A stretch of DNA of 63,853 nt, from contig CABMDO010000022.1 in NCBI GenBank assembly GCA_902384935.1, positions 1 to 63,853 on the forward strand, read 5' to 3'. Of the stretch, positions 4,139 to 18,641 are shown piece after piece. The position numbers and the translations under genes are program-made. Source of the DNA: Candidatus Norongarragalina meridionalis. GTDB lineage: Archaea; Micrarchaeota; Micrarchaeia; Norongarragalinales; Norongarragalinaceae. Within the stretch, counting starts at the first letter, position 1. Every line of letters begins with the position of its first letter. Under the pieces are notes generated by a model that did no database searches, had not been told where the DNA came from, and saw only the letters and a list, made by a program, of their open reading frames with translations.

Positions 4139-4684
4139 TCACCGTTCGATTCCTAAGTTCGTCCGCTTCATCGCGGAAGACAGGACGAGGAAGGTTATCC
4201 CGCCGAAGAACATGCTTATTCCGAGCAGGAGCCCCAACACCCACGCCGCGTCGGTAGGCCATCCGATGATGATCATCACGCCGAGCAGGATGCCCATGAA
4301 TCCGTCGAAAAGCAGCCAGCCCGCGTTGCCGAACGCTTTCAGCGCCTGCGACATCGCTATTTTCACGCAACCGCTCGCTATGAGCATCGCGGCGAGCAGT
4401 AGCGTCAGCGCGACGGCGCCTCCGAACGGATTGTACGTCAGGAAGAACGCAGCCGCAAGGTAAATCAGCGCGAGGAGGGTTATGAAGAGGAAACCGCTCC
4501 ATTTTCTCGCGGTGAACGCGAACGCGAATTGCGCCAAACCGCCGAAGAAGAAGAGAATCGCGAGGAAGAGCTCCAGCCCGGCAGTTCCAGCGACGGGGTG
4601 CAGTACCAATATCGCGCCCAAGAGCACGAAAAGCACGCCCAAGCCGAGCAGCCAACCAGACCAGTTTTCGGTTTCCATCTTCAT
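4139..4684 (-). CDS. HdeD family (DUF308) membrane protein
   Basis: 181 residues that are almost entirely hydrophobic, with about six transmembrane helices arranged as three hairpins. The glycine-rich helices (GVLFVLLGAILVLHP near the start, DGFMGILLGVMIIIGWP near residue 130) match HdeD/DUF308 proteins. Family members are linked to acid resistance in enterobacteria; no biochemical role is known for archaeal ones. The start at ATG 4684 could equally be the in-frame ATG two codons later. The nitroreductase gene follows on the same strand. The 58-base gap to the divergent YdeI-like gene holds a TATA box for that gene. Confidence 0.8.
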   Translation of the reverse strand: MKMETENWSGWLLGLGVLFVLLGAILVLHPVAGTAGLELFLAILFFFGGLAQFAFAFTARKWSGFLFITLLALIYLAAAFFLTYNPFGGAVALTLLLAAMLIASGCVKIAMSQALKAFGNAGWLLFDGFMGILLGVMIIIGWPTDAAWVLGLLLGISMFFGGITFLVLSSAMKRTNLGIER

Positions 4685-5327: not shown

Positions 5328-7748
5328 TCAGTAGCCGATTCCGACTTTCTGGTAAATCCAGTGCTTCGGGAAATCAACGAGAAGAACCGCCGCCGCGCAA
5401 ACCAGGAACGTCGAGATTATTTCGCGGGAGGAAAGCGCCGTCATGCCCGCGCCGTACCACGAAATCAGCGAGAATACGATTATCGCGAACCAGAGAGTCG
5501 CCGCGACGTATTTGTGCGGCCAGGACTGCCAGAAATGCCCGCGCTCGCGGACTATGTAGATGCCTAGCTGCCCCGTGTAAACGAGCGAAAGCGTCATCAG
5601 CGTCTGGATGCCGTCGAGGTTCAGGTTGAACCACTTCACGCCCATCATGAGCACGATGAACTCGATGACGAAGAACAGTATGCCCACGAACGCCGAAGCG
5701 CGCGTGATGCTTCCGAGCTCCCACAGGTTGGGCTTCTTCGAGGCGCGCGAGTTATCCACCGCAAGCGACATGGTAAGGAAGTCGTTGATTATCATGAGGA
5801 ATATGAGCCCGTTTATCGAGACGACGACGTCGTGGAACCAGAAGAGCCCTACCAGCAGTATCAGCATGAACTGTATGGAGCGCGCGACTTTCTTCACGGT
5901 CCATGTGAGCATGCGCTGGAACGTTTCGCGGCTCGTTTTGACCGCTTCGAGTATCACTTTCGTGCCCGGTTCGGTTAGAACCATGCCCGCCGCTGCCTTC
6001 GCCACGTCCGTGGCGGTGCTCACCGCGATGCCGAGCTCCGCCTGCTTCAGGGCGGGAGCGTCGTTCACGCCGTCGCCGGTCATGCCGACCATTTTTCCGC
6101 GCGACTGTATCAACTTGACGACCCAGAACTTGTCTTCGGGATAAATCTCCGCGATTCCGTCGCTTGCGAGAACCGCGTCGGCCTGCTGCTTCTCGGGCAG
6201 CGCCCTTATCTCGGATATGCGCGCGATTCGCGCGCCTATGCCCGCCTGCGCCGCTATTTCGCGCGCAACCGCGATATTGTCGCCGGTAAGCATGATGGGC
6301 TTTACGCCTGCCTCGCGCAGCGCGGCGATTGTTTCCGCTGAATCGGGGCGCAGGGGGTCGCCCAAGCCGATGACGCCTACGAGCGACAATTCGTCGAATT
6401 TGCCGTATTCCGAGCGCGCTACCGCGAGGGCGCGGCAGCCCTTTTTCGAGAGTTTTTCGACGGCATCGTTGAGCGCGTCCTTCTGCGCCTGCGTCGCGCC
6501 TTTGCAGAGCGAGGCAATCATCTGCGGCGCGCCCTTCATCGCTAGGAAGCGCTTGACTCCGCAGGAAACGGTGCCTTCGGCGCGCTTAGTTGCGGGTTCG
6601 AACGGCTTATAGGATGCCTGAACGCATCCGGGAAGTTTCGCCTTCTTTTCGGCGGCGTATCGTATTATCGCCGAATCTATCGAATCCTTGCTCCCTTCGC
6701 TGGAAGCGAGCGCCGCGAGCGCGATAAGCTCCGATTCGCTCCCCTTGCCGAGCGGAACGGCGTCGCTGACCTCGAGCTCGTTCATCGTTATCGTGCCGGT
6801 TTTGTCGAGGCAGAGCACTTCGACGGAAGCGGCGTTTTCGATGGAGTCGAGCTTGGTTACGAGGATGTTCTTTTTAGAAAGATCCGTCGCGCCTTTGGAT
6901 TGCGATATGGTGAACATCACGGGCAGCGCGGCGGGGATGCCTCCGCCTATGAAAAGCACGGCGAACGTCAACAGTATGGATTTTTTGATGTCGATGACGA
7001 ACAACGCGTACGCCAGTATGACGAGGAACAGCGCCACGCCTATGTAGGCGACGTTCTTCGAAAGCGTGAACATTATTTCTTCCGTCTTCGATTTAGGCTT
7101 CGCAATGCTGACGAGCTCGACGGTTTTCCCGAAATAGGTGTGCATGCCCGTGTTCACGACGATGCACCGTGCCTCGCCTCTTTTCACAGTTGAACCCGTG
7201 AATATGACGTCGTTCTCGTGCAGTTCGACCGGAAGCGATTCGCCGGTGAGCGCCGCCTGGTCCGCCGAAATGCCGCCGGAAAGTATCTTGGCATCCGCCG
7301 GCACGACGTCGCCCAAACCGACGATTATGACGTCGCCCGGCACGAGTTCGCGCGCCTCCAGCGTCTGCCAGTCGCCGCGAAGAACGCGCGTCTTTATCGT
7401 GAGCTTCTTCTTGAGGATTTCGAGCGCCTTCTTGGAATCGTGCTCGTTGTAGAACGCGACGATTCCATTCACCAGCACGAGGATGAACAGAACGAATGCG
7501 TCGAACCGGTCGCCCAGAAAGAAGCAGGCGATCGTGGCGATTTCCCAGATCCAGGGAATCGGTCCCCAAAAATGGGACAGGAATTCGAGCAGAACGGACT
7601 CCTTTTTTTCGGGAATCTCGTTGTATCCGAATTCCTTCGCCCTTGCCGCGGCTTCGGCTGCGCTCAACCCTTTTTCCGAGGTTCCGAGCGAGGCGAGCAC
7701 CTCCTTGGCGTCCATTTCCTTGAATTGAGAAGTTGATTTGGCTTCCAT
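5328..7748 (-). CDS. Plasma-membrane-type H+ P-type ATPase (P3A)
   Basis: 806 residues starting at ATG 7748. Visible are the N-terminal cation-ATPase domain (10-55), the actuator TGES loop (168-171), PAALP in transmembrane helix 4 (272-276), the phosphorylated Asp315 in LCLDKTGTITMNE, and later MTGDGVNDAPALKQAELGIAV in the P domain. Helix order, overall length and the absence of N-terminal metal domains fit the PMA1/P3A proton-pump family found in fungi, plants and some archaea. It would export protons at the expense of ATP. It is divergent from the DUF1624-like gene, with about 60 bases of shared upstream DNA. Confidence 0.9.
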   Translation of the reverse strand: MEAKSTSQFKEMDAKEVLASLGTSEKGLSAAEAAARAKEFGYNEIPEKKESVLLEFLSHFWGPIPWIWEIATIACFFLGDRFDAFVLFILVLVNGIVAFYNEHDSKKALEILKKKLTIKTRVLRGDWQTLEARELVPGDVIIVGLGDVVPADAKILSGGISADQAALTGESLPVELHENDVIFTGSTVKRGEARCIVVNTGMHTYFGKTVELVSIAKPKSKTEEIMFTLSKNVAYIGVALFLVILAYALFVIDIKKSILLTFAVLFIGGGIPAALPVMFTISQSKGATDLSKKNILVTKLDSIENAASVEVLCLDKTGTITMNELEVSDAVPLGKGSESELIALAALASSEGSKDSIDSAIIRYAAEKKAKLPGCVQASYKPFEPATKRAEGTVSCGVKRFLAMKGAPQMIASLCKGATQAQKDALNDAVEKLSKKGCRALAVARSEYGKFDELSLVGVIGLGDPLRPDSAETIAALREAGVKPIMLTGDNIAVAREIAAQAGIGARIARISEIRALPEKQQADAVLASDGIAEIYPEDKFWVVKLIQSRGKMVGMTGDGVNDAPALKQAELGIAVSTATDVAKAAAGMVLTEPGTKVILEAVKTSRETFQRMLTWTVKKVARSIQFMLILLVGLFWFHDVVVSINGLIFLMIINDFLTMSLAVDNSRASKKPNLWELGSITRASAFVGILFFVIEFIVLMMGVKWFNLNLDGIQTLMTLSLVYTGQLGIYIVRERGHFWQSWPHKYVAATLWFAIIVFSLISWYGAGMTALSSREIISTFLVCAAAVLLVDFPKHWIYQKVGIGY

Positions 7749-10568: not shown

Positions 10569-10620
10569 GAACTAAGTTGCGCGGCGGGTAATAAAAGCTT
10601 CGCCGAACGGCTGCGATGCG

Positions 10621-10629
10621 ATATAAAAA
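10621..10629 (+). promoter_or_regulatory. TATA box for the Mg2+ P-type ATPase gene
   Basis: ATATAAAAA centred about 24 bases before ATG 10649. The spacing supports that ATG as a leaderless start rather than the in-frame ATG at 10616, which lies upstream of the TATA box. Confidence 0.65.
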
Positions 10630-10648
10630 ACCCCGTGCTAATGCGTTC

Positions 10649-13195
10649 ATGTTCCGCGGGTTCATCGCGCCGTCATTCGCCGAGTGGGCGGCACCCGAAA
10701 AGAAATTCATCGACGACATGCAGACCACGGAAAAGGGGCTGCGCGACGAGGAGGCGAAGTCGCGCATCGCGACGTTCGGATACAACGAGCTCGCGCCGAA
10801 GAAGAAGCGCGGCATGCTGCTGCAGTATCTCTCGTATTTCGTCAACCCGTTGATAATCGTCCTCATAGTCGTCGGGCTCGCATCGTATTTCCTGAACAAC
10901 GTGTTCAGCGCGATAATCGTGTTCTTCATGGTGCTCGTCAGCGTGTCGCTCACGTTCTACCAGGAATACACCGCGCAGGATGCCGCCGAAAAGCTCAGGA
11001 AGATGATCCGCAACACCGCGACGGTCGTCCGAAGCGGCGTGAAGCAGGAAATCGCGCTTAAGCACCTGGTGCCCGGCGATCTCGTTCTCCTTTCGGCGGG
11101 CGATTTGGTGCCCGCGGACTGCCGCATCATCACATGCAAGGACTTTTTCGTCAATCAGGCATCGCTTACCGGCGAGTCGCTTCCCGTCGAGAAGAATCCC
11201 GCGCCTTCGAAGGAAGGGGCGTCGGTTACGGAACTCGGGAACGCCGCGTTCTTCGGAAGCAGCGTAATCAGCGGCTCGGCCGAGGCGATAGTCGTCCGCA
11301 CGGGACTGTCCACGCAGTTCGGCGAGCTTTCGCGCAGGCTTTCGCGCACCGGCGCGGACACGGCATTCGATCGGGGAATACGGGATTACAGCATGCTCAT
11401 GGTGAAGTTCGTGATCGCGCTGGTGCTCGTCATCTTCGTGATAAACGCGGTTCTCAAGAACGACGTGTTCAGTTCCCTGCTTTTCGCGCTCGCCGTCGCA
11501 GTAGGGCTCACGCCCGAGATGCTTCCCGCAATCGTTACCGCGAACCTGTCGCAGGGCGCCAACGCGATGGCTAAGAAGGAGGTGATAGTCAAGCGCCTGC
11601 CTTCCATCCAGAATCTCGGCGCCATGGACGTCCTGTGCACCGACAAGACGGGCACGCTCACGGAAGACAGGATAGAGCTCGTCAAGCACGTGAACATCAA
11701 CGGCGAGGAGGACGACCGCGTCCTGGAGCTCGCATGCCTGAACAGCATGCACCAAACTGGGTTGCGCAACCCGCTCGACGGCGCGATACTCGAGCACGAC
11801 GTCGGAAGCGTGAGCAAAGAGGTGCGGGAATTCAAGAAGGTGGACGAGATTCCGTTCGACTTCCTGCGCAGGCGGATGAGCGTAGTCGTAGACTCGCCGC
11901 ACGAAAAGCGCATTCTTCTCACTAAAGGCGCGCCGGAAAGCATACTCCCGCTCTGCACCGCGCATTCCGAGGGCAAATTTTCGCAGCAGCATGCGAAGAA
12001 AGCGCAGGCGCTGTACGAACGCCTGAGTTCCGACGGCTTCCGCGTGCTCGCGCTCGCGTCCAAGCCGCTCAAAAAGGAATCGCGAACATACGTAGTCGCG
12101 GACGAGGCGGAACTGGTGTTCGAGGGATTCCTCGCGTTCCTGGACCCCCCGAAGAAGACGGCGCACACGTCGCTGCAGGAGCTCATCAAGCGCGGCATCG
12201 AAGTGAAAATCCTTTCCGGCGACAACGAACTCGTCAACGCGAAGATTGCCAAGGAAGTCGGGCTTACCGTGAAGGGCGTCATCACCGGGGACCAGATAGA
12301 GAAGGCGAGCGACGACTCGTTGCAGGTGCTCGTCGAGAAGAATACGATATTCGCGCGCGTCATGCCAATGCAGAAGGAGCGCATCATACTCGCGCTCCAG
12401 CGGAACAAGCATGTCGTCGGGTATCTCGGCGACGGGATAAACGACGCGCTCGCGCTGAAGACTTCGGACGTCGGCATATCCGTTGATTCCGCCGTGGACG
12501 TCGCCAAGGAATCGGCGGATGTGATTCTCCTGCGCAAAAGCCTGCACGTGCTTTACGAGGGAGTCGACGAAGGGCGGCGCACGTTCATGAATACCGTGAA
12601 GTACCTGAGGATGGGCTCGAGCTCCAATTTCGGGAACATGTTTTCAGTGGTGGGTGCGAGCATATTCCTGCCGTTCCTGCCCATGACGCCCGTGCAGATA
12701 CTGCTCAACAACTTCCTCTACGACATGTCGCAGCTAGGCATCCCGACGGACCGCGTCGATTCCGAGTCGCTGGCGAAGCCCGCGAAGTGGGACATGAACG
12801 GCATCAAGAATTTCATGATATACATAGGGCCCATCAGCAGCATCTTCGACTACCTGACGTTCGGCCTGCTGTTCGTCGTGCTTCAGCTGCCCGCGGAATC
12901 GTTCCACGCCGGCTGGTTCCTCGAATCCATAATCACGCAGACGCTCGTCATCCACGTCATACGCACGAACAAGATTCCGTTCCTGGAAAGCCGTTCGAGC
13001 AACCGGCTCCTGTTCCTTTCGCTCCTGATAGTCGGCATTGCGCTGGCGATAGTGCTGACGCCGCTGCACTATTACTTCGGCTTCGGGCACCTGCCCGCGA
13101 TATTCTTCCCGATTCTCGCCGTCTTCGTAATATGCTATCTGCTGCTGACGCAGTTCGTGAAGAAGAAGCTGCTCGAGCGCGGCGTCATATCCTGA
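10649..13195 (+). CDS. mgtA: Mg2+-importing P-type ATPase (MgtA family, P3B)
   Basis: 848 residues. Family signatures in order: TGESLPVE in the actuator domain, VGLTPEMLP in helix 4, LCTDKTGTLTEDRI with the phosphorylated Asp, NSMHQTGLRNPLDGAIL in the nucleotide domain, YLGDGINDALALKTSDVGISVD, and the strongly diagnostic NNFLYDMSQLGIPTDRVD near the C-terminal helices. MgtA/MgtB pumps bring Mg2+ into the cell using ATP. The start at 10649 is chosen because a TATA box lies 20-28 bases upstream. The gene stands alone but is followed by a CorA-like gene on the other strand, so two Mg2+-related transporters lie close together. Confidence 0.92.
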   Translation: MFRGFIAPSFAEWAAPEKKFIDDMQTTEKGLRDEEAKSRIATFGYNELAPKKKRGMLLQYLSYFVNPLIIVLIVVGLASYFLNNVFSAIIVFFMVLVSVSLTFYQEYTAQDAAEKLRKMIRNTATVVRSGVKQEIALKHLVPGDLVLLSAGDLVPADCRIITCKDFFVNQASLTGESLPVEKNPAPSKEGASVTELGNAAFFGSSVISGSAEAIVVRTGLSTQFGELSRRLSRTGADTAFDRGIRDYSMLMVKFVIALVLVIFVINAVLKNDVFSSLLFALAVAVGLTPEMLPAIVTANLSQGANAMAKKEVIVKRLPSIQNLGAMDVLCTDKTGTLTEDRIELVKHVNINGEEDDRVLELACLNSMHQTGLRNPLDGAILEHDVGSVSKEVREFKKVDEIPFDFLRRRMSVVVDSPHEKRILLTKGAPESILPLCTAHSEGKFSQQHAKKAQALYERLSSDGFRVLALASKPLKKESRTYVVADEAELVFEGFLAFLDPPKKTAHTSLQELIKRGIEVKILSGDNELVNAKIAKEVGLTVKGVITGDQIEKASDDSLQVLVEKNTIFARVMPMQKERIILALQRNKHVVGYLGDGINDALALKTSDVGISVDSAVDVAKESADVILLRKSLHVLYEGVDEGRRTFMNTVKYLRMGSSSNFGNMFSVVGASIFLPFLPMTPVQILLNNFLYDMSQLGIPTDRVDSESLAKPAKWDMNGIKNFMIYIGPISSIFDYLTFGLLFVVLQLPAESFHAGWFLESIITQTLVIHVIRTNKIPFLESRSSNRLLFLSLLIVGIALAIVLTPLHYYFGFGHLPAIFFPILAVFVICYLLLTQFVKKKLLERGVIS

Positions 13196-14895: not shown

Positions 14896-17022
14896 TTAAA
14901 CCGTTTCGGGCTTCCAGCGCTTCATCAGCAGGGCGTTCCCGACAACCGAAACGCTGGAGAAAGCCATCGCGGCGCCCGCAACCATCGGATCAAGCGTCAC
15001 GCCGTACGAATAAAGCGCGCCCGCCGCAACCGGAATCGCCGCCACGTTGTAGGCGAACGCCCAGAACAGGTTCTGCCTGATTTTGCGGAGCGTGTACCTG
15101 CTGAGGTCGATTGCGTTCGCGACGTCGCGCAAATCGTTGCGCACCAGCACTATGCCGCCGGTTTCCATCGCCACGTCGGTTCCGCTGCCCAAAGCGATGC
15201 CCAGCTCGGCGCGCGCAAGCGCAGGCGCGTCGTTTATCCCGTCGCCGACGAATGCCACGCGCCGCCCCTCGGACTGCAGCCGCGCCACTTCCTTTTCCTT
15301 TCCCTCTGGCAGCACTTCGGCTATAACCGCGGTTATGCCCGCCTCGTCTGCAATCGCCTGCGCGGTGCGTGCATTGTCTCCGGTAATCATCATGGTGCGG
15401 AACCCCTTACGTCCCAGGGAGGCGACGGCTTGCGCTGCGTTCTCCTTCAGCGTGTCGGCAATCGTAATCACGCCGACGCACTTTCCGCCTACGCCCACGA
15501 ATACGACGGTTTTGCCCTGCGCTTCGAGCCGTTTCGCAATGCCGTCGGTTTTCGCGTCGCATTTCACCAGTTTCCTGCTTCCGACGGTTATCTCCTTGCC
15601 GCCGTAGCGGGCCTTCACGCCTTTTCCCGCCACGTTCCTGAACGACGACGGGTTCGGCACGCGCCCGTTTTTCGCGAGAATCGCCTGAGCAAGCGGGTGT
15701 TCCGAGTTCCTTTCCGCGATTGCCGCGAACCGCAGCGCATCGTCCTTTCCGAACTTGACGACATCGGTAACCTCGGGCTTGCCCTTCGTAAGCGTGCCTG
15801 TTTTGTCGAAAATCACGGTGTCGATTTTTCCCGCAGCCTCGAGCGCGTCACCGCCCTTTATCAATATCCCGTGCTCCGCGCCCTTGCCCGTGCCAACTAG
15901 CACCGCAACCGGCATCGCCAAACCAAGAGCACACGGGCACGCCACTATCAGCACGGAAACGAAAATCGTGAGCGCGAATTCAAACGTCGAATGCGCGAGG
16001 AACAGCCAATAAGCCGATGAAGCAAGGGCGATGACTATTACTGCGGGCACGAAAACCGCCGCCACCTTGTCCGCGAGCAACTGCACCGGCGCCTTGGCGG
16101 CTTGGGCGTCCTCGACCAGTTTGACAATCTGTGCGAGCATTGTTTCGGAACCAATGCGCGTCGCACGAATACGGAGGGCACCGTTGCCGTTTACCGTCCC
16201 TCCAACCACGGAATCGCCCTTTTTCTTCTCAACTGGCATCGATTCGCCCGTAACCATGGACTCGTCGACGCTCGAATCCCCGAAAACAACCATACCGTCA
16301 GTGGCTATCCGTTCCCCCGGCCTTACTGAAAAGATGTCGCCTTTCCCTAGCGAGTCGGCAGGCACTTCCGTTTCCCTGCCGTTGCGCCACGCGCGGACGG
16401 TTTTCGGCTGCAAATCCATGAGCTTGCGCACCGCCTCGCCGGTAAGCGAGCGCGAGCGCGCCTCCAAGTACCGTCCGAGCAGGATGAACGCGATTATTAC
16501 CGTCGCACCGTCGTAATAGAGCGAACCGTTCAGGAAGCCGAACGTAACCGCCGCGCTGTAGAAGAACGCGGCGCTTGTTCCGAGCGCTACGAGAACGTCC
16601 ATATCCGCGCTCCCGCGCTTCAGCGCCGCCCAGGTGCGCTTATAGAAGAGTCTGCCTGCCCAGAACTGCACCGGCAACGAGAGCAAGAACAGGAGAATAG
16701 GAGGCGTGCTCTCGACGAAGGAAAGGACGAATACCAGAAAAGCGAGCGGCGCCGCGACGAGTAGATCATTCCTTACTTCCGCCGCGTCGTCGACGTGCCC
16801 GTGATGTGCCGTGCTTTCCTCGAACGCCGCGTATCCTTGGGTGCCGATTACCCCCGCCAGCTCGTTCGCGTGCACGTGCTCGGCGTGCTCTATGGTCGCC
16901 TTCTGCGTAGCGAAGTTCACGGACGCCGCCGTAACCCCCGGCGTCTTCTTCAGCGCCTTTTCGAGATTGACGGCGCACGACGCACAATGCATGCCCGTGA
17001 CTCGGAGCGTGGTCTTCTTCAT
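14896..17022 (-). CDS. copA: Cu+-exporting P-type ATPase
   Basis: 708 residues. One N-terminal HMA metal-binding domain (GMHCASC, Cys13 and Cys16), a His-rich stretch near 72-77, the actuator TGES (258-261), the CPC metal site in a membrane helix (362-364), phosphorylated Asp406 in DKTGTLT, and [30 protein letters not shown] in the P domain. CPC together with the class-1B layout indicates a Cu+/Ag+ efflux pump. A strong ribosome binding site (GGAGG) precedes ATG 17022. It is the last gene of a cluster with an HMA membrane protein, a TRASH-like small protein and an HTH regulator, which supports a copper role. Confidence 0.93.
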
Positions 17023-17033
17023 CTTGCGGCCTC

Positions 17034-17918
17034 CTATGCAGCAACCTCGGGCTGCTTAATAATCTTCGCGGGATACTGCCCGAACACGTCCAGCGAAAGG
17101 ATAGCCTGCGGGTTCGTTTTCGAGGGATCGTACGTCACGAAGAAATTGTTGGGCGAGCCGAACTGCACTCCCATGACGCCATCCGCTTTTTTCAGTTCGT
17201 TCGAAATAAGCGGCGCATGCCCGGCGCAGGGTATATCCACGCTTATCTGCATTGACGCGCTCAGCTGCGCGGCTGGCAGCGGCGTTGGCGACGCCAAGCC
17301 CGAAACAATCGCAGCGGTCGGCGAAACGATTCCCACAACCGCGCCGGTTACAGAGGGCTGCGCAATCGCGAAGTTGGCGAGCATCGGGAACAGCACGAAG
17401 AAGAACAGCGCGTTGACTCCTATCGTGGAGCCGTACATCGCCGCGAGGTATTTCCACCTCTTTTTCGCGCCGTCGGCGGAAAGCTGGCCGTTGCGCCTCA
17501 GATATATCGCCGCGGATACCGTCGCGAAAACCAGCGATAACGCTATGAGCCCGTAGAAGAAATAACGGTTCATCAGGAGCGGCTTGAAAAATTCCGTCAT
17601 CATGGTCACGCCGAGAACCGACGCCGCTATGAACGCGATGCACCCAGCGTGCGGCAGCAATCCGTAAAGAACGCCCTCGGTCCACTCCCGCTTCTCCTTG
17701 GCGGCGGCCACGCCGTCCGCGGAATAGCCGAGGCCGCGTATTTTCTCGCGGATGGCGCCTATTCCGATCGCCTGCGGGTCGTAATTAACGAACGCCTTGC
17801 TTCCGTCGAGGTCAACGCTCGCGCTTTCCACGCCGTGCATGGACTTCAATTCCGCCTCTATCTTGTCCGCGCACGAGCGGCACTTCATGCCGTCGATTCT
17901 TATTTCCACTTTTTCCAT
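17034..17918 (-). CDS. HMA-domain membrane protein of the copper cluster
   Basis: 294 residues. An N-terminal heavy-metal-associated domain (about 1-70) has the metal pair GMKCRSC (Cys13, Cys16). About four transmembrane helices follow (roughly 85-230). The C-terminal part (about 225-294) resembles a second HMA-like fold, with its single Cys in [14 protein letters not shown] and a closing pattern of alternating strands. It probably delivers Cu+ to CopA or moves it across the membrane. ATG 17918 has an upstream GGTGGT ribosome binding site. It overlaps the end of the 56-aa upstream gene by 19 bases and ends 11 bases before copA. Confidence 0.8.
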
Positions 17919-18070
17919 GCGCACCACCTTTTCCTGCACTCGCGGCAGCAGAACTCCTTGCTCTTGTCCGTTATTCCCATGCCGCAGAGCTTGCAGAAGC
18001 GATGGGAACGCTCGCCGTCCGCCATCTCCCTGCCGCAAATCCTGCAGCGCGGGAAAATTTCCTTTTCCAT
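17900..18070 (-). CDS. 56-aa TRASH/YHS-like metal-binding protein (putative copper chaperone)
   Basis: A short gene, MEKEIFPRCRICGREMADGE and onward, with eight cysteines in 56 residues: C9xxC12, C26xxC29, C41-C42xxC45 and C50. The segment CKLCGMGI...FCCREC resembles the CGM...FCC..C pattern of TRASH/YHS metallochaperone domains that accompany archaeal copper ATPases (the CopM type). It begins 38 bases after the regulator gene, downstream of a palindrome and an AT-rich TATA-like element, and overlaps the HMA gene by 19 bases. It is therefore the first gene of the copper export operon. A zinc-ribbon role is the alternative. Confidence 0.75.
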   Translation of the reverse strand: MEKEIFPRCRICGREMADGERSHRFCKLCGMGITDKSKEFCCRECRKRWCAWKKWK

Positions 18071-18094
18071 GCAGGACTACGCGCAGAAACAGCC

Positions 18095-18105
18095 TAATAG
18101 AATTA
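18095..18105 (-). promoter_or_regulatory. TATA-like element of the copper operon
   Basis: TAATTCTATTA on the minus strand, centred about 30 bases before ATG 18070, immediately downstream of the 14-bp palindrome. Confidence 0.45.
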
Positions 18106-18108
18106 GTA

Positions 18109-18122
18109 TGAAACTAGTTTCA
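18109..18122. promoter_or_regulatory. 14-bp perfect palindrome, candidate operator
   Basis: TGAAACTAGTTTCA is a perfect inverted repeat. It overlaps the TGA stop of the HTH regulator and abuts the TATA-like element of the copper operon, which is where an archaeal repressor or activator would bind. Confidence 0.55.
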
Positions 18123-18641
18123 GCCGAGCGGTTTAAGAACCACTACATTGCTCATGCCGCGGCGCCTGCGTTCGACGAGTCCCTTCGCCTCGAGCCTGTC
18201 GAGAATCCGCGTCACTTTCACTTTCGGAAAGCCCGTGGACTCCGCGAGCTGCGCCTGGAAAATCGTCCCCTCCGCCTCTATGATTCTTTCCAGTATGTTT
18301 TTCTCCTCGCCGCTCAGGGTAGCCATTGCCTTGGCATAATTTTCCTTGGAAACGCGCTTCGGCTCGAACTGGCGCGCAGAGGGTTTGATCGTCCTGAACT
18401 TCGTTATGATGCGTTCCTCCTCACCGAAGAAAATCAGGTAGAGCCCGATTAGCACTATAAAGAGCATTATTCCGATGCCGATGTTCGTCTGGAGCGTCAG
18501 CGTGCCCCACATCGGGCAGCTGGTGCCGTGCGTGCACGCCGTAGAAACGATGTCGGTGAGCGCCCTGTTGAAAAGATAGACTATCAGCCCGATTACCGCG
18601 GCTATGCCGATTATGAGGATTCCGACGATTCTGTTTCTCAT
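18120..18641 (-). CDS. Membrane-bound winged-helix transcriptional regulator
   Basis: 173 residues. Two N-terminal transmembrane helices (about 4-24 and 48-70) flank a short loop with a Cys pair (TACTHGTSCPMW), followed by a cytoplasmic linker and a MarR/HTH-type winged-helix domain (about 100-165) with a recognition helix in FPKVKVTRILDRLEAKGLVERRR. Membrane-tethered wHTH proteins are common in archaea. The extracytoplasmic Cys loop could sense metal or redox state. It precedes the copper operon and a palindrome sits at its stop codon. Its start overlaps the transketolase stop (ATGA), so it is translated with a metabolic gene, which is unusual for a copper regulator. Confidence 0.7.
   Translation of the reverse strand: MRNRIVGILIIGIAAVIGLIVYLFNRALTDIVSTACTHGTSCPMWGTLTLQTNIGIGIMLFIVLIGLYLIFFGEEERIITKFRTIKPSARQFEPKRVSKENYAKAMATLSGEEKNILERIIEAEGTIFQAQLAESTGFPKVKVTRILDRLEAKGLVERRRRGMSNVVVLKPLG

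Follow-up and report, generated by a model that had tools for sequence, protein, structure and literature searches.

In the window analysed here (the whole stretch of 63,853 nucleotides, contig C22 of genome G000, which comprises 0.93 Mb in 23 contigs), the gene directly upstream of a predicted copper-export operon encodes a membrane-anchored one-component regulator that appears to control the operon, probably as a repressor relieved by copper. We put the probability of this reading at roughly 70%. Genome comparisons showed that, in Micrarchaeota, the regulator family co-occurs with the DNA element GAAACYRGTTTC-N19-GTTTC, which sits at the promoters of predicted copper genes.

The predicted copper operon and its probable membrane-bound regulator

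The genes of the locus, all on the minus strand, follow transketolase genes and are arranged as regulator (18641–18120), small Cys-rich protein (18070–17900), HMA-TM protein (17918–17034) and CopA (17022–14896), with the following features:

18120–18641, minus strand: regulator, 173 aa, with a transmembrane (TM) segment (residues 3–35), a short loop predicted to be extracytoplasmic, a second TM segment (43–72), a linker (79–93) and a winged helix-turn-helix (wHTH) domain (99–169; DUF7343/MarR), from Pfam and AlphaFold
18510–18536, minus strand: regulator loop C36-T-H38-G-T-S-C42-P-M44, candidate Cu(I) ligands, from the alignment of homologues
18135–18347, minus strand: winged-helix domain, the most conserved part of the regulator (GFxKVKVSRILDRLExKGLVERRRRGMTN), from alignments and the AlphaFold model
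17900–18070, minus strand: small Cys-rich protein, 56 aa, first gene of the operon, of treble-clef/zinc-ribbon type (DUF2116-like, sub-threshold) and probably leaderless, from the ORF and comparison
17924–17928, minus strand: GGTGG, Shine-Dalgarno-like, upstream of the HMA-TM start, within the small ORF near its end; shared with the sister species
17034–17918, minus strand: HMA-TM protein, with an HMA domain (residues 6–65; Pfam HMA, E = 1.9e-17), a TM region and, at the C-terminus, a soluble domain bearing an IPCxGHA motif
14896–17022, minus strand: CopA, predicted Cu(I)-exporting P1B-ATPase, with an N-terminal HMA domain and CPC/YN/MxxSS motifs (TIGR01511, 630.9 bits; cut-off 397)

The predicted products, i.e., the small Cys protein, the HMA-TM protein and CopA, mark the locus by content as a copper-export operon, and the TIGR01511 match, together with the CPC, YN and MxxSS motifs, assigns the predicted CopA to the Cu(I) type. 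The HMA-TM product is membrane copper chaperone-like, and its homologues adjoin the regulator gene at loci L048 and L050–L054. Its C-terminal soluble domain, which matched no Pfam family, contains a conserved IPCxGHAxLI motif (window 17034–17240 and homologues) and may constitute an extracytoplasmic HMA-like copper site. A second P-type ATPase (Cation_ATPase_N/C, Ca/Mg-like) is encoded on the plus strand at 10616–13195, 1.7 kb past the end of copA. The closest relative in the named collection, Candidatus Micrarchaeota archaeon CG08_land_8_20_14_0_20_59_11 (genome G007, locus L007), is referred to here as the sister species. Its TM protein has no N-terminal HMA domain, and further along its operon come genes for a CopZ-like HMA protein and for an HMA-DsbD_2-cupredoxin fusion (L007 5732–7410), CopA being absent before the contig end.

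The regulator scored over the Pfam cut-offs for both DUF7343 (42.4 bits; cut-off 27.6) and MarR_2 (38.4 bits; cut-off 27). Its AlphaFold model (pLDDT 82) shows the C-H-C-M loop connecting two long hydrophobic helices, and the linker, modelled with low confidence, is read as flexible. We found homologues in 88 of the 301 Micrarchaeota genomes. Across the sensor types distinguished here, the wHTH domain and the operator described below are constant, whereas the sensor part is variable. The type A sensor region, CxHxxxCPM, is kept in nine homologues (the window and its nearest relatives) that adjoin CopA, while type B (Cx5-7CPH) is encoded divergently from HMA/CopA, and type C (ICTQHC) lies beside a cupredoxin/COX2-like and Fer4_5 gene set. 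Type D regulators (L064, L065 and L067–L071) have a longer membrane part with four TM-like segments and no loop Cys; they have the same wHTH domain and operator, and are mostly not beside CopA, which is nearby in two of the seven. Since type D keeps the operator without a Cys loop, not every member of the family has to sense copper bound in the loop, and type D regulators may answer another signal.

Most of the regulators adjoin CopA, HMA, TM-HMA, cupredoxin, DsbD_2 or DsbA-type genes. Several operators have DsbA-like and DsbD_2 genes next to them, the regulator loop contains two Cys residues, and type C and D regulators, despite their other loops, have the operator in common; these observations are consistent with a regulator that senses the extracytoplasmic redox or disulfide state, in which case the copper genes would be induced since copper stress oxidises thiols. 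However, the neighbourhoods of the Cys-loop regulators are dominated by CopA, HMA or cupredoxin genes, and CopA lies within 4 kb in most regulator loci that are not cut by a contig end; we therefore consider redox sensing improbable, and prefer copper as the signal for the window regulator.

Several observations concern other members of the family. At L007 ~4562–4564 (G007:C54), the sister regulator gene has an in-frame TAG at the codon that is TGG in the window (W45 of the CPMWG loop). The gene may be a pseudogene, the change may be a genuine nonsense mutation, or the assembly may be in error; the operator and the following genes are intact. At L072 (G062, 6436–7675), a regulator homologue without the palindrome is found beside a GTPase whose P-loop sequence is CobW-like, which hints at a variant for zinc or another metal. 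Haloarchaeal plasmid proteins of the MarR family/DUF7343 have the winged-helix domain in common with the window regulator (34–46% identical over the matched stretch), but the three haloarchaeal loci inspected showed neither the GAAACYRGTTTC operator nor a clear copper-operon context.

The candidate operator and the geometry of the putative promoter

Between the regulator gene and the small ORF, the following elements were recognised:

18109–18122: candidate operator, full palindrome TGAAACTAGTTTCA with the core GAAACTAGTTTC at 18110–18121, overlapping the regulator stop, from scans and alignment
18094–18099, minus strand: TATA-like element TATTAG within N19, 24–29 nt before the ATG of the small gene, a putative promoter element from a 15-site consensus
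18086–18090, minus strand: third half-site GTTTC, exactly 19 nt past the palindrome, from the recurrence of N19-GTTTC

The preliminary description had placed a palindrome between the membrane-bound regulator and the TATA element of the operon. The palindrome is indeed present, with TATTAG beyond it at 18099–18094, but it reaches into the regulator gene and overlaps its TGA stop codon (18120–18122). TGAAACTAGTTTCA occurs once in the window. Perfect 14-bp palindromes number eight in the window, so that TGAAACTAGTTTCA taken as a bare palindrome is not above chance; it might be suspected of being a fortuitous inverted repeat or else a terminator for the regulator gene. Its significance comes from its conservation, not from its palindromicity. 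The stretch of 52 nt between the stop codon and the ATG of the small gene differs from that of the sister species at two positions, as compared with differences at 40% of third codon positions in the adjacent regulator gene (P ~2e-9). When 30 of the best regulator loci were inspected, GAAACYRGTTTC was found to adjoin nearly every close homologue. Furthermore, of the 27 Micrarchaeota genomes whose regulator homologue scored 56 bits or more, 22 contain TGAAACYRGTTTCA, as against 5 of the 274 others; the Fisher p-value (4e-24) is only indicative because the 56-bit line was set after the list had been seen and the genomes are related. The 27 genomes, of the 301 examined, that carry TGAAACYRGTTTCA span 19 genera, and matches to the reversed-pattern control came from no more than two genomes. 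This phylum-wide co-conservation with the regulator, which includes divergent promoters where no gene ends, and a palindrome without a GC-rich stem, make a chance repeat or a terminator scarcely credible.

Those of the five TGAAACYRGTTTCA sites without a regulator that were examined adjoin unrelated genes and not copper promoters, and the N19 half-site or composite element is absent from all five. In G000 itself, just two further one-mismatch sites were found (GAAACGAGTTTC; L041 and L044). A wider regulon in this genome was considered and rejected, with no composite site beyond the operator and no copper gene established near L041 or L044.

The palindrome belongs to a longer element. Among the palindrome-anchored sites, 19 of the 36 distinct ones are followed by N19-GTTTC, the next commonest spacing being seen in three. 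The composite GAAACNNGTTTC-N19-GTTTC was detected in 20 of the 301 genomes, 18 of which also have the regulator, and its reversed control in none. The longer form, GAAACYRGTTTC-N19-GTTTC, encloses a TATA-like box within N19 and adjoins HMA, CopA, cupredoxin or DsbA genes; the box stands at a fixed place (consensus TAATAT, columns 23–28, 15 sites). Genome G038, which is without the exact palindrome, retains GAAACTAGTTTT-N19-GTTTC, and loci L053 and L060 have spacings other than N19. The second site at L057 and L061 forms a complete palindrome, placed in the same register, suggesting that the third half-site belongs, as its right half, to a second dimer site, with the TATA element lying over the left half. 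These two loci (G016 and G017) thus carry tandem full palindromes; the L061 set encodes a cupredoxin/COX2-like protein and a Fer4_5 membrane protein, and the L057/L061 set may represent a respiratory or assembly system that depends on copper, in an archaeon that is otherwise reduced. In the window, no Shine-Dalgarno sequence is present upstream of the small-gene ATG, which, together with the distance of 24–29 nt from TATTAG, fits a leaderless start.

The same regulator and operator could also work in the opposite sense. The Pyrococcus furiosus CopR protein activates from a semi-palindrome, TTNNCAWWWTGNNAA, directly upstream of the BRE (PMC7830388), and the window palindrome is located immediately upstream of the TATA region, so that a Cu-bound regulator on it might recruit TBP/TFB. 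However, the conserved third half-site stands downstream of TATA at a fixed spacing, and a second dimer there would cover the TATA box. This half-site favours repression over activation, and we regard an activator as somewhat unlikely and a repressor as the preferred reading.

The small Cys-rich protein

The operon was previously described as opening with an unannotated 56-aa ORF with eight Cys residues that overlaps the HMA gene, and this was borne out: the Cys residues are at positions 9, 12, 26, 29, 41, 42, 45 and 50, and the overlap is 19 nt (HMA-TM start, 17918). The sister species has a homologue of 53 aa at the equivalent position, 77% identical and with seven of the eight Cys kept (dN ~0.12, dS ~0.33), indicating that the small ORF is a real coding sequence. 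Its dS is far lower than that of the adjacent regulator gene (~0.96; window versus L007, few sites), weakly hinting at an extra constraint at the nucleotide level.

The preliminary description further assigned this product to the TRASH/YHS copper chaperones, an identity that we rejected: neither species' small protein matched the Pfam models Arc_trans_TRASH and YHS, even at E ≤ 10. One could still suppose that it is a TRASH-type CopM chaperone at the core of a copTMA-like circuit, since its position and size match those of Sulfolobus metallicus CopM2, a 56-aa protein that overlaps copA2 by 11 bp in the operon copTMA and is first in copMA (PMC3595675), and since C26-x2-C29-x11-C41-x3-C45, i.e., CxxC...FCCxxC, follows the ligand order of the TRASH/FCS superfamily. 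Besides the missing profile match, the 11-residue spacer between the Cys pairs differs from the spacer of 22 in a described YHS example (Mycobacterium phlei, ligands D178/C181/C204/C208) and of 14–30 in zf-FCS (CX2CX14-30FCSX2C). The protein was also found solely in the genus of the window among the 301 Micrarchaeota genomes: a search with a two-member profile was convincing only in G000 and G007, the other matches (E 5e-4 to 9e-4) being partial. In addition, genome G010, of the same family, has the regulator, the operator, a TM-HMA protein and CopA without the small protein. We therefore rejected the small protein as the circuit core and consider a TRASH-type CopM decidedly improbable; the position and size leave room for a CopM-like working, while TRASH membership is unsupported.

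The best family common to both species' proteins was DUF2116 (PF09889), a probable treble clef, with E-values of 0.049 for the window and 0.0015 for the sister species. The HxxC-x2-CG-x10-CxxxC pattern of this family is seen in residues 22–50; the window protein, however, scored 14.1 bits, below the curated cut-off of 26.8, and has an extra N-terminal CxxC. A match to an unrelated zinc-ribbon family, which the preliminary description had named as one finding that would tell against its proposal, is thus only half borne out. The AlphaFold model is modest (pLDDT 74.5), and searches of the PDB by sequence and by fold found nothing significant, the best fold match having E 0.73 and the FCS finger 2w0t E 2.5. 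Taken together, the small protein is best explained as a lineage-specific treble-clef protein, probably a genus-specific minor extra inessential to the circuit, and is perhaps a cytosolic Cu/Zn buffer.

A model of copper control and its relation to known systems

In the model that we favour, the winged-helix domain would reach the DNA on the flexible linker from its membrane anchor and bind as a dimer to the palindrome; a second dimer, 24 bp on, would occupy a site whose left half is overlaid by the TATA element. Bound to these tandem sites, the regulator would block TBP/TFB and thereby repress the operon. Extracytoplasmic Cu(I), bound by C36, H38, C42 and M44, would release the regulator, the export genes would be transcribed, and the small protein would be co-induced with the operon. 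The compact copper circuit proposed earlier thus survives in the membrane regulator, the adjacent operator and the operon, although not with the small protein at its core. For the phylum as a whole, a membrane one-component sensor with an extracytoplasmic C-x-H-x3-C-x-M copper loop might replace the TRASH regulator, with two dimers across TATA in an invariant 24-bp register and the second half-overlapping TATA; we hold this scheme tentatively, judging its chances to be a little short of even.

Archaeal copper control has been described around soluble TRASH-domain regulators. The domain of these regulators (PF08394) exceeded its cut-off in one of 296 Micrarchaeota genomes and was absent from G000 in the profile search, while the positive controls, Sulfolobus acidocaldarius and Haloferax volcanii, responded. 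The sole Micrarchaeota domain over the cut-off (L133, G286:C1:824715–824825) is in a genome that does not have the membrane regulator, suggesting from the gene content that TRASH-type and membrane regulators may replace each other.

The locus resembles the archaeal cop cluster (copTMA/copR-copA of Sulfolobus, Pyrococcus and Thermococcus) in that a regulator stands beside a Cu chaperone and CopA, a palindromic operator is found at the TATA/BRE of the export genes, and a small Cys protein leads the operon, as copM does. CopA and an adjacent HMA chaperone are present, but a TRASH-domain CopR/CopT is not: the window regulator is membrane-anchored, of the DUF7343/MarR type and without a TRASH domain. 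The operator is GAAACYRGTTTC-N19-GTTTC here and TTNNCAWWWTGNNAA for CopR (PMC7830388), the chaperone is of the HMA type and fused to TM helices, and the small protein is not TRASH by profile. With the transmembrane transcription regulators, an established class (TTRs; e.g., archaeal ArnR/ArnR1 and bacterial ToxR/CadC), the window regulator shares a TM part and a DNA-binding domain in one chain. The known archaeal TTRs named in a survey act on motility and pili, and the text of that survey does not mention copper or metal (PMC10269533); the window regulator, in contrast, has an N-terminal two-TM unit with a C-H-C-M loop and is linked to copper genes. A search of openly available papers found neither the operator sequence in a relevant context nor the names DUF7343 and DUF2116.

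In Micrarchaeota copper export, a membrane-anchored regulator and a palindrome around the promoter thus appear, from the genome comparisons, to replace the usual archaeal copper regulator. To our knowledge, almost no transcription factor of DPANN archaea has an assigned operator. The present analysis offers, as a candidate derived from sequence, a defined regulator family for these archaea together with its operator sequence, promoter geometry and target set, and provides a rare example, at the sequence level, in which a candidate binding site can be identified for an archaeal regulator that is membrane-bound. The steps of the model are open to in vitro work with short DNA and a 75-residue domain.
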